A DNA stretch of 64,000 bases from an uncultured Flavobacteriaceae bacterium (GTDB taxonomy: Bacteria > Bacteroidota > Bacteroidia > Flavobacteriales > Flavobacteriaceae), in contig CANMSB010000001.1 of assembly GCA_947500445.1 (NCBI GenBank), positions 186,001-250,000 of the forward strand, written 5' to 3'. The first letter of the stretch is position 1. Every line of letters begins with the position of its first letter. Shown here one piece after another: positions 32,495-63,532 of this stretch. Made by a program: the position numbers and the translations under genes. The notes below the pieces were generated by a model, which was not told where the DNA came from, did no database searches, and saw only the letters and a list, made by a program, of their open reading frames with translations.

Positions 32495-33214
32495 ATGAAG
32501 ACAAAAATAGCAACGGACAAGGCAAATGTTGCGGTGGATTTTTCCCGTTATTTGGCCATTTTGATTTCATCGAAAAAAACGGTGCACATCGCTTTATCGG
32601 GCGGTAGTACGCCCAAAGTAGTTTTTGATGAACTGGCCGCCAACTTTCAGGCCGATATCGACTGGTCCAAGGTGCATTTGTATTGGGGCGACGAACGCTG
32701 TGTTCCTCCAGAGGATGATCAAAGCAATTATAAGATGACAGAGACCCATCTGTTGTCCAAAATTAAGATTCCAAAAGAAAACGTACATCGGGTGCTTGGG
32801 GAGGACGATCCTGAAAAAGAGGCGGCCCGTTATGCCGCGCTGTTGGAAGACCATCTGCCTTCCGTGGACGGACTTCCGCAATTTGACCTGGTTATACTGG
32901 GGATGGGGGATGACGGGCATACCGCTTCCATTTTCCCCCATGAAATCGCCCTTTGGCAATCTGAAAAGTACTGCGAAGTGGCCACGCATCCCGATAGCGG
33001 GCAAAAGCGTATTACCATTACCGGCAAGCTAATCAATAATGCGGTTATCGTCGCTTTTTTGGTCACCGGTAAAAACAAGGCCCCAAAGGTAGCAGAGATC
33101 ATCCATAAAAAGGATTCGTTCGAAGCATACCCTGCAGCTTTGGTAGCCCCAAAAAGTCAGAAGTTGCTCTGGTTTTTGGACGCCGAGGCGGCCCAAGCGC
33201 TTACACCATTTTAA
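32495..33214 (+). CDS. pgl: 6-phosphogluconolactonase
   Basis: The 239-residue enzyme hydrolyses 6-phosphogluconolactone, the second step of the oxidative pentose phosphate pathway, of which zwf and gnd are neighbours. It shows the DevB/Pgl motifs HIALSGGSTPKVVFDEL (about 28-44) and LGMGDDGHTASIFP (about 140-153). Its last codons and stop (CCA TTT TAA) coincide with the left end of a dispersed repeat element, so the element's end forms the 3' end of the gene. Confidence 0.95.
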   Translation: MKTKIATDKANVAVDFSRYLAILISSKKTVHIALSGGSTPKVVFDELAANFQADIDWSKVHLYWGDERCVPPEDDQSNYKMTETHLLSKIKIPKENVHRVLGEDDPEKEAARYAALLEDHLPSVDGLPQFDLVILGMGDDGHTASIFPHEIALWQSEKYCEVATHPDSGQKRITITGKLINNAVIVAFLVTGKNKAPKVAEIIHKKDSFEAYPAALVAPKSQKLLWFLDAEAAQALTPF

Positions 33215-33364
33215 CTTTGAAATTGTAGGTATAGAAATTGAATTATTTTTAGGTATTCAAGGCGAAAAACCTAAGCATATAGCCGTAGCTACGGTTATTT
33301 TTTTTAATGAAGAACAACTGAAAAAGAAACCATTTATTAGTGCTATTTCAAAGTTAATATGGTA
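33205..33364 (+). repeat. dispersed MITE-like repeat, full copy A
   Basis: The element starts with ACCATTTTAACTTTGAAAT (33205-33223) and ends with its near-perfect inverted copy ATTTCAAAGTTAATATGGT (33345-33363). Its centre contains the palindrome CCGTAGCTACGG and a TAAGCAT...AGCC motif. It aligns along nearly all its length with the reverse complement of the copy at 60808-60989. No gene is inside. Its left end overlaps the end of pgl and its right end abuts the stop codon of the thioesterase gene, so it fills the whole convergent intergenic space. Confidence 0.85.
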
Positions 33365-33910
33365 TTACTTAAGCGCTATCTTAAGATTTTCATTGGCCAA
33401 TCCCTTTTGGTATTTGGAAGCGTCAAAGTTGTTTTCGTCAAATTTGGTATCCCTTTTAAAAGCGGCCTCCTTTCGGAACTTGCTCCTTGCAAAACGGCGA
33501 ATGCCCTGTTTGTCCTGTACTAAAAGTCCCGGAACGGGAGTACTGTTTCCTTCGTCATCTTTGGCGACCATGGTAAAATAGGAGGAGTTGCAATGCCTTT
33601 TTTTTCCGCTGGTCACGTTTTGCGATTCCACGCGAACACCGACAACCATTGACGTACGGCCGGTATAGTTGATAGATGCCTTAAGGGTCAAAAGTTCACC
33701 GACCTCTACCGGACTTAAAAAATCGACCCGGTTCACCGATGCGGTCACACAGTATTTTCGGGAATGTTTGGAGGCACAGGCGAACGCGATCTGATCCATT
33801 AAACTTAAAATATGGCCGCCATGGATCTTGCCCCCAAAATTGGAGTGGGAGGGTAGCATCAATTCGGTAATCGATAACCTTGACTCCCTAGCCGTTTTGA
33901 ATTCTTTCAT
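33365..33910 (-). CDS. acyl-CoA thioesterase (hotdog fold)
   Basis: The 181-residue protein has a 4-hydroxybenzoyl-CoA/acyl-CoA thioesterase hotdog domain of the YciA/ACOT type. The motif SNFGGKIHGGHILSLMDQIAFACASKHS (about residues 22-49), with the catalytic Asp in HILSLMDQ, and CVTASVNRVDFLSPVEVGEL are typical of acyl-CoA hydrolases. The C-terminal 40 residues are a charged extension (RFARSKFRKEAAFKRDTKFDE), common in this family. It likely hydrolyses short to medium acyl-CoAs in the cytoplasm. It is convergent with pgl across the repeat element. Confidence 0.88.
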   Translation of the reverse strand: MKEFKTARESRLSITELMLPSHSNFGGKIHGGHILSLMDQIAFACASKHSRKYCVTASVNRVDFLSPVEVGELLTLKASINYTGRTSMVVGVRVESQNVTSGKKRHCNSSYFTMVAKDDEGNSTPVPGLLVQDKQGIRRFARSKFRKEAAFKRDTKFDENNFDASKYQKGLANENLKIALK

Positions 33911-60579: not shown

Positions 60580-61043
60580 AATGTGTTATTCGTTAATCGC
60601 TAATAGGTGTGTTGCATAGAGCGATTATCGATCATAACCCATTGGACTCCTCGCAACACCTGCCATACCGGCGGCTTAGATTAAAGCGGCAAAGGTACTG
60701 CTAATTATTAACATAGTGTGCCCGGTACCCGATTGTCGAAAAAGTGGGTCGTTCAAAGGTATTATATGCTAGTGCCCCTGGCCTGAAATAAGGTTTCCGG
60801 AGCTATTACCATTTTAACTTTGAAATAGCACTAATAAATCGTTTCTTTTTCAGCTGTTCTTCGTTAAGAAATATAACCGTAGCTAAGGCTATGCTTAGAT
60901 TCCCGGTCAAGCCGGGGACAGGCTTTTTGCCTCGAACAACTGAAAAAATAATTCAATTTCTATACGCGCGATTTCAAAGTTAAAATGGTATAAGTATTGT
61001 GGCGCTTGCCGTAAAAAGAGGTGTCGTGGAGAACTGGTCCGGG
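60580..61043. other. 464-bp gap with helicase promoter region and full repeat copy B
   Basis: The left part (60580-60800) is the leader of the helicase gene, with a TACCTTTG element on the minus strand (60697-60690) but no clear -33 box. The right part holds the full repeat copy (60808-60989). No protein or RNA gene was recognised. Confidence 0.6.
60808..60989 (-). repeat. dispersed MITE-like repeat, full copy B
   Basis: The ends ACCATTTTAACTTTGAAAT (60808-60826) and ATTTCAAAGTTAAAATGGT (60971-60989) are perfect 19-bp inverted repeats. Read as reverse complement, it aligns nearly throughout with copy A. It contains a roughly 24-bp segment not found in copy A that is itself palindromic (CCCGG-N5-CCGGG, 60902-60916). 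TA dinucleotides flank both sides, as with TA-target elements. No gene is inside. Confidence 0.9.
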
Positions 61044-61648: not shown

Positions 61649-62101
61649 ATGAAATTGAAAATACCGCCACTGCTGGTCTTGCTCATTTTTATAGGGGCGA
61701 TGTACGTACTCGATAGGTTTTTGCCCGTTGGCGATTTTGATTTTTTTGGGAGTACTATTCTAATTTATGGTCTACTCGGACTTTCTGGTGTCATAGGTGC
61801 GGTAGCTTTATGGCATTTTTTTAGGGCAAGGACCACCATTGACCCCAGAACACCTTCGAAGGCTTCGCAACTGGTGACGAACGGACTATATGCGTATACC
61901 CGTAACCCGATGTATTTGTCGTTTTTATTGATTCTTTTGGCTTGGGGCTTGTGGTTGGGCAATGCTTTTAATACACTGCTGGCCGCTGGTTTTGTAGGCT
62001 ATATGAACCGGTTTCAAATACTACCGGAGGAAGAGGCCCTGTCCCGATTGTTCGGAAAAGAGTACCAACGGTATTGTATTGCCGTACGGAGATGGTTCTA
62101 A
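61649..62101 (+). CDS. isoprenylcysteine carboxyl methyltransferase-like membrane protein
   Basis: The 150-residue protein has four hydrophobic segments and belongs to the bacterial ICMT/phospholipid N-methyltransferase group (PEMT/isoprenylcysteine methyltransferase). Typical are LVTNGLYAYTRNPMYLSFLLILLAW (about 70-95), where the RNPMY motif binds SAM, and EEEALSRLFGKEYQRYCIAVRRWF at the C-terminus, with the PEE.L...FG..Y..Y signature. The bacterial substrate is unknown. Its stop is followed at once by the SatD operator array; its neighbours do not indicate a pathway. Confidence 0.88.
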   Translation: MKLKIPPLLVLLIFIGAMYVLDRFLPVGDFDFFGSTILIYGLLGLSGVIGAVALWHFFRARTTIDPRTPSKASQLVTNGLYAYTRNPMYLSFLLILLAWGLWLGNAFNTLLAAGFVGYMNRFQILPEEEALSRLFGKEYQRYCIAVRRWF

Positions 62102-62114
62102 AAACCAACTAAAA

Positions 62115-62223
62115 ATTATAAGCCTTTTGACTTATAATAACCACTTATAAGCTTTTCGACTTATAATTGCTATTTATTAGCATTTTTGCTTATAAATGTA
62201 TAAATTAGCGCTTTGGCTTATAT
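62115..62223 (+). promoter_or_regulatory. array of four dyad-symmetric operator-like sites upstream of satD
   Basis: Four inverted repeats of the type TTATAAG-N8-CTTATAA lie at 62116-62137, 62145-62166, 62174-62195 and 62202-62223. The left arms are TTATAAG, TTATAAG, TTATTAG and AAATTAG; the right arms CTTATAA, CTTATAA, CTTATAA and CTTATAT. Every unit has an 8-nt centre with a pyrimidine-rich CTTTT core, and their starts are spaced 29, 29 and 28 bp. The last site ends 2 bp before the satD start codon. This regular, phased array looks like a cooperative operator, most plausibly bound by the HTH of SatD itself. Confidence 0.85.
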
Positions 62224-62225
62224 TT

Positions 62226-62834
62226 ATGATAGCAATTATAACGGGCGATATCGTTAATTCCGAAGATTATGTTTCATCGGAATGGTTGGAAGTCCTCAAA
62301 AAAAGTTTTTCCAAATGGGGGGAAACCCCTAGTGATTGGGAGGTGTATCGCGGCGATGAGTTTCAGCTCCGTGTATCGGTGGCCCATGCACTGGAAGTAG
62401 CGATTACCATAAAGGCGTTGATGAAAACGTTCAAGGAGCTAGATGTGCGAATAGGAATCGGTTTGGGGGACGAAACGTTTGTGGGGGCCAGTGTAAGCGA
62501 ATCGAACGGGTCTGCCTATCAACGTTCGGGGAGAACCTTTGAGTCGTTAAAAACACAAAAACGAAACCTTGCCATAGCCACGGGAAATCCGGTCTATGAT
62601 CGTACCTTTAAATTGGTATTGGGGCTTGCCCTTGATTTTATGGACGATTGGAGCATCGTTTCGGCAGAAATTGTTGCCTTGGCATTAGAAAGACCCGAAG
62701 CTTCACAAATGGAGATTGCGGGACTGCTGGACATTCAGCAATCTGCGGTGAGCCAAAGACAAAAACGTGCGCGTTTGGATCTTGTTTTAGAACTTTTGGA
62801 GTATTACCGGACCACAGTAAAAGAATTGATGTAA
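62226..62834 (+). CDS. satD: SatD family protein with C-terminal helix-turn-helix
   Basis: The 202-residue protein matches the SatD family, named after a gene of the streptococcal secretion and acid tolerance locus. The N-terminus starts MIAIITGDIVNSEDYVSSEW; the GDIVNS loop and YRGDEFQL near residue 40 recall the metal- and nucleotide-binding elements of GGDEF/cyclase-type folds. The C-terminus has a helix-turn-helix (MEIAGLLDIQQSAVSQRQKRA, about 160-180). I start at ATG 62226; upstream codons of the frame lie inside the operator array. It overlaps the DUF3307 gene by one base (TAATG). The arrangement suggests a regulator that binds a nucleotide or stress signal and controls its own operon. 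Confidence 0.85.
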   Translation: MIAIITGDIVNSEDYVSSEWLEVLKKSFSKWGETPSDWEVYRGDEFQLRVSVAHALEVAITIKALMKTFKELDVRIGIGLGDETFVGASVSESNGSAYQRSGRTFESLKTQKRNLAIATGNPVYDRTFKLVLGLALDFMDDWSIVSAEIVALALERPEASQMEIAGLLDIQQSAVSQRQKRARLDLVLELLEYYRTTVKELM

Positions 62835-63532
62835 TGACCTTATTCTTAAAAATCTTCCTTGCACACCTTATCGTAGACTTTTTGCTACAGCCCGATCGAT
62901 GGGTACGCCATAAAGAAATGCACAAGGCCAAGTCAAAATACCTATACATTCATGTTGCCTTACATTTTGTGGTAACCATGCTATTGCTTTGGGATTTTTC
63001 GTATTGGGGGCTTGCCTTGATCATAACGGTATCGCACTATTTTATCGATCTATTGAAACTGTACGCCACACCCTTGTTCAAACACGCGAATATTCCGTTT
63101 TTTATCGACCAATTACTGCATATATTGGTGCTTTACTGTTGTGCGTTTTATGGAGGGCTTTGGGAACATACCGGCACCTTTTTCCGTCATTTGGATTGGG
63201 GCATGGCATCGGGCATCGTTTTTTTAAGTTTTCCAGCGGCAATTATAATGGGGAAATTATTGGAACGCATGTCCGCCCAAATCGCATTGGATCACGATTC
63301 GCTGCCCAATGCGGGGAAATATATCGGTATTATTGAACGTCTTTTTGTTTTTCTGTTCATTTTATTGGGAAAATGGGAGGCGATCGGGCTATTGATTACT
63401 GCCAAATCCGTTTTTCGCTTCAACGATTTAAAAGAAAGCAATAACCGAAAGCTGACCGAGTATATTCTGATCGGGACCTTGCTCAGTTTCGGTATGGCCA
63501 TGTTGACCGGACTCCTTTACGTGTACGTTTGA
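62834..63532 (+). CDS. DUF3307 family membrane protein
   Basis: The 232-residue integral membrane protein has about six hydrophobic segments and the DUF3307 signature LAHLIVDFLLQPDRWVRHKEMHKAKSKYLYIHVALHFV (about 8-45), with the H..VDF.LQ motif and a second His-rich ISHYFIDLLKLY near 65. I start at ATG 62834, overlapping the satD stop. The internal longer frame from 62648 is in the satD gene. DUF3307 proteins are often found next to SatD; their function is unknown. Transport or membrane modification under acid or envelope stress is only an inference. Confidence 0.8.
   Translation: MTLFLKIFLAHLIVDFLLQPDRWVRHKEMHKAKSKYLYIHVALHFVVTMLLLWDFSYWGLALIITVSHYFIDLLKLYATPLFKHANIPFFIDQLLHILVLYCCAFYGGLWEHTGTFFRHLDWGMASGIVFLSFPAAIIMGKLLERMSAQIALDHDSLPNAGKYIGIIERLFVFLFILLGKWEAIGLLITAKSVFRFNDLKESNNRKLTEYILIGTLLSFGMAMLTGLLYVYV

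Follow-up and report, generated by a model that had tools for sequence, protein, structure and literature searches.

The window (here and below, the whole analysed stretch of 64,000 nucleotides from an uncultured Flavobacteriaceae bacterium) contains the satD gene, preceded by an array of palindromes whose upstream neighbour is a PEMT/ICMT-type methyltransferase gene. The gene downstream encodes a DUF3307 protein and shares 1 nt with satD, its start codon overlapping the satD stop (TAATG). The satD start at 62226 was favoured over the longest-ORF start at 62196 by comparison with relatives. The features of the locus are:

62116..62137, no strand: putative operator copy 1, TTATAAGCCTTTTGACTTATAA, arms perfect
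62145..62166, no strand: putative operator copy 2, TTATAAGCTTTTCGACTTATAA, arms perfect
62174..62195, no strand: putative operator copy 3, TTATTAGCATTTTTGCTTATAA, one arm mismatch
62202..62223, no strand: putative operator copy 4, AAATTAGCGCTTTGGCTTATAT, degenerate, ending 2 bp 5' of the satD start codon
62226..62834, plus strand: satD, 202 aa and stop, start set by homology
62226..62588, plus strand: SatD residues 1–121, nucleotidyl-cyclase/GGDEF-like palm domain, D8 and D44 conserved
62706..62768, plus strand: SatD helix-turn-helix (HTH), model helices 161–168 and 172–181
62739..62768, plus strand: SatD recognition helix, residues 172–181, with specificity residues S173, A174 and Q177 predicted from co-variation
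62834..63532, plus strand: DUF3307 membrane-type protein, PF11750 at E 5.3e-25

The name of SatD comes from the Streptococcus sat locus and stands for secretion and acid tolerance. The window protein matches the Pfam family PF16264 over residues 2–188 with 29 bits, the cut-off being 29. In the genome-wide search satD is the only match to this family (E <= 0.001), with 27.8 bits, just under the cut-off; out of 30 SatD relatives, 25 match it at E <= 0.1. An assignment of SatD to sigma-70 region 4 was rejected, as the PF04545 score of 18.4 bits is below the curated cut-off of 24.1. PADLOC yields no match to SatD or DUF3307, PHROGs matches DUF3307 only to a membrane-protein family, and the window SatD has no match among phage records at E <= 1e-5. 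Among the matches listed, the literature on SatD, DUF3307 and PF16264 describes no DNA binding, operator or palm domain for SatD.

The four copies start at 62116, 62145, 62174 and 62202, and both the sequence and a repeat finder bear out the spacing of 29, 29 and 28 bp given in the preliminary description. The gap between the ICMT stop (ending at 62101) and the satD start is 124 bp, as also stated there, given that satD starts at MIAIITGD. The proposed word TTATAAG-N8-CTTATAA is exact in copies 1 and 2 and has one mismatch in copy 3, whose form, TATTAGC...GCTTATA, is frequent within the genus. Copy 4 has four mismatches in 14 arm positions, as counted by eye, and hence is a copy by register and not by sequence. 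The operator words of the window may be written as TATAAG/TATTAG-N8-CTTATA, with linkers of 9, 9 and 8 bp between the palindromes. The copies were earlier called phased, which is wrong: 28/10.5 and 29/10.5 give 2.67 and 2.76 helical turns, so that the copies are evenly spaced but do not lie on one face of the helix.

Over the 200 bases 5' of 62226 the array scores 9, compared with the maximum of 2 in 20 dinucleotide shuffles. The tandem form of two copies (at most 3 mismatches) occurs in the 5.2-Mb assembly only in the satD leader, the reversed control giving 0. In the 64-kb window, single loose matches with at most 3 mismatches fall short of significance: seven are observed with 4.68 expected, and 22 of 100 shuffles reach seven. 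A wider regulon was considered and rejected: single genome matches with at most 2 mismatches are seen in 24 places, fewer than the 50 for the reversed control. Since the loose matches are below the control and the tandem form occurs at satD only, we propose no further regulon members.

The satD gene is present in all ten genomes of the genus and in 165 of the 299 sampled genomes of the family, and a search with alignment found it in 104 of 395 genomes of the phylum. We collected 305 loci (L006–L310), of which 21 with identical SatD were dropped, leaving 284 with distinct SatD; the 80 named loci are the best 80 of 519 and are biased to close relatives. The general unit TATxyz-N8-z'y'x'ATA, 20 bp in length, was derived from 97 leaders and then all 284 loci were scanned. 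The score is at least 4 in 228 of the 284 distinct upstream regions, compared with nine of 5,680 shuffles, and it reaches this level in all nine genus relatives sampled besides the window. With distances of 26–33 bp permitted, the copy-to-copy spacing is 28 bp in 382 of 474 gaps and 29 bp in 89. As the inner gap and the linker are both 8 bp at the 28-bp spacing, half-sites follow each other every 14 bp in alternating direction.

The xyz letters depend on the clade: WAG, TAC, CGG, CTG, CGT, TCC, CAC and ATG are observed. The preliminary description had proposed, as a test, to look for TTATAAG-N8-CTTATAA itself in front of other satD genes. The exact word turned out to be clade-specific and not widely conserved, whereas the layout recurs, with other letters, in the 97 leaders; hence a test of exact-word conservation would have been misleading. 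In the 56 loci under the score cut-off, a motif-free detector finds tandem palindromes in 14 (seven of 560 shuffles), and several other low-scoring loci look by eye like eroded arrays. No array is visible by eye in the 180 bases upstream of satD at L253, L255, L256, L259–L263 and L268, which form one family. These loci encode a diverged Bacteroidota SatD and are not among the five loci without DUF3307.

At 278 of the 283 loci with enough downstream sequence, satD is followed by DUF3307 on the same strand. DUF3307 is present in 176 of the 299 sampled family genomes, and comparison of the two lists by eye gives 163 genomes with both genes, two with satD only (G114 and G158) and 13 with DUF3307 only. 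Of the last group, ten of the 13 were fetched, and in all ten a profile reveals a diverged SatD just upstream. At six of these ten loci (L319–L323 and L325) the leader has tandem palindromes that outscore the locus's own 20 shuffles; at the other four (L317, L318, L324 and L326) the shuffles are not exceeded.

The comparison of the xyz letters with SatD is not circular, since the array scan used no protein information. It covers the 228 loci with arrays, the 56 below score 4 being excluded, and a reduced set of 121 loci with less than 70% identity; gap-rich or low-variation SatD columns were excluded. Residue 177 has the top excess mutual information with x, y and z and with xyz jointly, both in the 228 loci and in the 121 diverged ones. 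Residues 173 and 174 are next for joint xyz information in the diverged set, and all three fall within the model helix 172–181. The correspondence is simple: SAQ at positions 173/174/177 goes with WAG in 68 of 70 cases, AAR with TAC in 35 of 35, SSE with CGG in 11 of 11, DAK, NAK or EAK with TCC in 14 of 16, NTE or STE with CGT in 10 of 11, and SNE with CTG in eight of ten.

Relatedness was controlled for in three ways, and the results agree. In pairs matched by identity of the N-domain, the effect of residue 177 is 1.35, followed by residue 174 with 0.59, the median over 178 columns being 0.04. When the xyz letters are predicted from the 173/174/177 triple between loci with less than 50% N-domain identity, base accuracy is 0.86 and the exact xyz is obtained in 62 of 105 predictable loci (of 228); the best of 38 random residue triples reaches 0.61. 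The majority baseline is 0.40 and the nearest-relative baseline 0.41, both of which refer to the full 228 loci and not to the same 105. The triple accuracy is 0.84 at the identity cut-off of 45% and 0.88 at 60%. Finally, on the N-domain tree of the 121 loci, where AAG and TAG were merged into one operator class, residue 177 changes on 18 of the 40 branches with an operator-class change (5.5 expected), and its branch overlap (Jaccard) is the best of 180 columns. At that, the triple is not the whole code, because the exact xyz is wrong in 43 of the 105 distant cases. Columns 145, 137, 138 and 191, outside the recognition helix, show some signal too, which is what common descent would produce, and by the tree odds ratio residue 165, which belongs to the other HTH helix, is on a par with residue 177 (10.1 vs 9.8). 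A literature search on co-evolution of recognition helix and operator yielded no match.

As the half-site co-varies with the recognition helix, the operator letters shifting in step with the predicted DNA-reading residues, SatD very probably binds its own array. We have good confidence that the array serves the satD–DUF3307 operon as its autoregulatory operator, with SatD as the binder. This agrees with the earlier suggestion that SatD acts here on its own operon, which is now strongly supported computationally, both by the co-variation of the half-site with residues 173, 174 and 177 and by the joint occurrence of satD and DUF3307, usually with the array. We infer direct binding with one dimer per palindrome: each 20-bp palindrome would be read by the HTH recognition helices of one SatD dimer, one helix to each TATxyz half-site, and xyz would be selected by residues 173, 174 and 177. 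Repression is the likeliest regulatory sign: since the array extends through the leader as far as the start codon, its occupied sites would most likely keep satD and DUF3307 from being transcribed. The co-variation by itself does not tell repression from activation.

SatD might instead bind an array situated upstream of the −33 element and chiefly activate its operon, or regulate it in both directions. This overlaps with autoregulation by SatD, so that the two do not add up, and we consider it unlikely. The evidence comes from TAnnTTTG, which we take to be the Bacteroidota −7 box. It is found in 124 of the 228 leaders, a raw count without chance control; the last occurrence per leader was counted, and boxes at most 4 bases inside the array end were scored as downstream. 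In 48 of the 124 the box starts 20–28 bp after the last copy, which, if this presumed box is the right one and the count exceeds chance, would place the array just upstream of −33 as in activation. But the box and the last-copy end overlap in 31 leaders, and in 16 the box is situated between the copies, 30–33 bp before the last-copy end, the remainder being elsewhere. In the window, TAnnTTTG was not found at 61991–62240, and a scan for sigma-70-type promoters gives a single site, on the other strand and within chance. On the other hand, in the window and its nine sampled genus relatives the last copy found ends about 5 bp or less from the start codon, which would put the protein over the leader. 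Repression is also the common mode of autoregulators that act on repeated palindromes in front of one operon, which argues against activation. HipB is an example (PMC3920265).

Much less probable is that another transcription factor occupies the array, SatD being merely the product of a regulated gene. In favour of this, the SatD HTH is by sequence only weakly similar to solved HTH proteins (best E 0.024), but the half-site tracks residues of the SatD recognition helix beyond relatedness, and the gene pair and the array travel together also on a Vibrio lentus plasmid and at three viral-contig loci. We give slightly less credence still to the palindromes acting as RNA hairpins that control translation or termination in the leader. 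The satD leader does fold better than its shuffles (−24.7 kcal/mol, z −3.94), as expected of any palindrome array; however, no intrinsic-terminator-like sites were found at 61900–62400 (0.8 in shuffles), and hairpins require neither the 28/29-bp spacing nor arm letters following the residues of a DNA-reading helix. A neutral tandem repeat, or what is left of a repeat element, is hardly credible as an account of the array: slippage can produce tandem copies and there is a repeat element some 1.1 kb upstream, but arrays with different letters and a similar layout recur before satD, including relatives at 25–36% identity, and this genome has no second tandem copy.

The element in question is MITE-like and occupies positions 60807–60990 of the window. 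It has 30-nt terminal inverted repeats that are 87% complementary, and it is seen in at least 37 further near-full-length places of the genome at 77–98% identity (40 of 225 candidates scored). A second copy in the window is situated at about 33200–33367 on the minus strand (G000:C1:219200–219367).

The closest working model for autoregulation by SatD is HipB, the antitoxin and autorepressor of the E. coli hipBA operon, which represses cooperatively at four palindromic operators, TATCC-N8-GGATA (PMC3920265). The likeness lies in four operators preceding the protein's own operon and in half-sites that start with TAT and are separated by N8. Comparison of the SatD profile with solved structures yields weak matches only, and the best of them, the one at E 0.024 in the HTH, is again HipB. 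The window half-site is one base longer than that of HipB (TATxyz-N8), and the window arms do not read TATCC-N8-GGATA. The partner of SatD is DUF3307 (278 of 283 loci) and not a HipA-type kinase; SatD has the N-terminal palm domain, and its operator letters vary by clade. In a transposon study of S. pyogenes, satD is described as an essential accessory gene (PMC11323703), which would be in keeping with repression of a harmful partner, although this is only suggestive.

The model of SatD residues 1–121 has the fold of the palm of nucleotidyl cyclases, GGDEF proteins and Cas10, with a TM-score by query of about 0.4; Y-family DNA polymerases score nearly as well. D8 is kept in 281 and D44 in 282 of 284 SatD proteins. 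D8 lies where strand 1 ends and D44 in the strand 2–3 hairpin, presumably the metal-holding places of the cyclase, GGDEF, Cas10 and mCpol enzymes, and this position in the fold points to D8 and D44 as candidate metal binders. The likeness to class III nucleotidyl cyclases, GGDEF, Cas10 and mCpol lies in the fold and in the placement of the aspartates; SatD differs from them in that its palm is fused to an HTH.

The DUF3307 model is all-helical with the mean pLDDT of 75.5 and is weak past approximately residue 120. Its N-terminal helices carry conserved HxxxD, HxxxH, HxxxD and DQxxH motifs, and residues H11, D15, H40, H44, H68, D72, D92 and H96 are kept in 251–271 of 274 proteins. These His/Asp motifs suggest a membrane metal site. 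With a predicted palm in SatD and a predicted helical partner carrying the His/Asp motifs, the sensor–effector label that the preliminary description gave to satD–DUF3307 is plausible and fits the anatomy of the pair.

SatD joins a cyclase-fold domain and an HTH within about 200 residues, and this combination in one protein suggests nucleotide-controlled transcription. The cyclase-like palm would probably bind or process a nucleotide and thereby alter DNA binding, although the nucleotide ligand, cooperative or polymeric occupancy of the array and DUF3307 as the effector are speculative. A more elaborate possibility, which we regard as doubtful in its entirety, is that SatD is a nucleotide-gated repressor coating the leader as a lattice, dissolved by a nucleotide signal to release DUF3307 as a metal-enzyme-like membrane effector, the whole being an accessory switch for stress or conflict with a fast-diverging code. 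In 28-bp arrays the half-sites alternate every 14 bp, or 4/3 of a helical turn, and the gaps within and between the palindromes are both 8 bp, which could allow two alternating SatD dimer contacts to build a helical filament on DNA; the 28-bp regularity would then reflect the protein lattice. Quick divergence of the operator code would perhaps avoid cross-talk between copies.

If SatD binds the array, as we propose, satD–DUF3307 is a module of two genes that regulates itself, has been little studied and recognises DNA by a readable code. An uncharacterised but common gene pair would then acquire a testable regulator whose binding site is defined and whose residues map onto bases in a simple way, and the satD loci would form a natural data set on joint change of specificity in a regulator and its operators.

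Outside the sampled genomes, a SatD relative followed by DUF3307 is encoded on plasmids of Vibrio lentus, Salinivibrio and Segatella copri. No clear array is seen in the satD leader of the Segatella copri plasmid. On the Salinivibrio plasmid there are two direct repeats at 28 bp, with a palindrome score inseparable from that of shuffles, and the Vibrio lentus leader contains three palindromes with the spacing of 28 and 28 bp. Distant satD–DUF3307 pairs, at 25–28% identity, are also present on the IMG/VR viral contigs L327, L328 and L329, and judging from these pairs the module may reside on mobile elements as well. Each of the three viral-contig loci has three tandem repeats spaced by 29 and 29 bp, with other letters.
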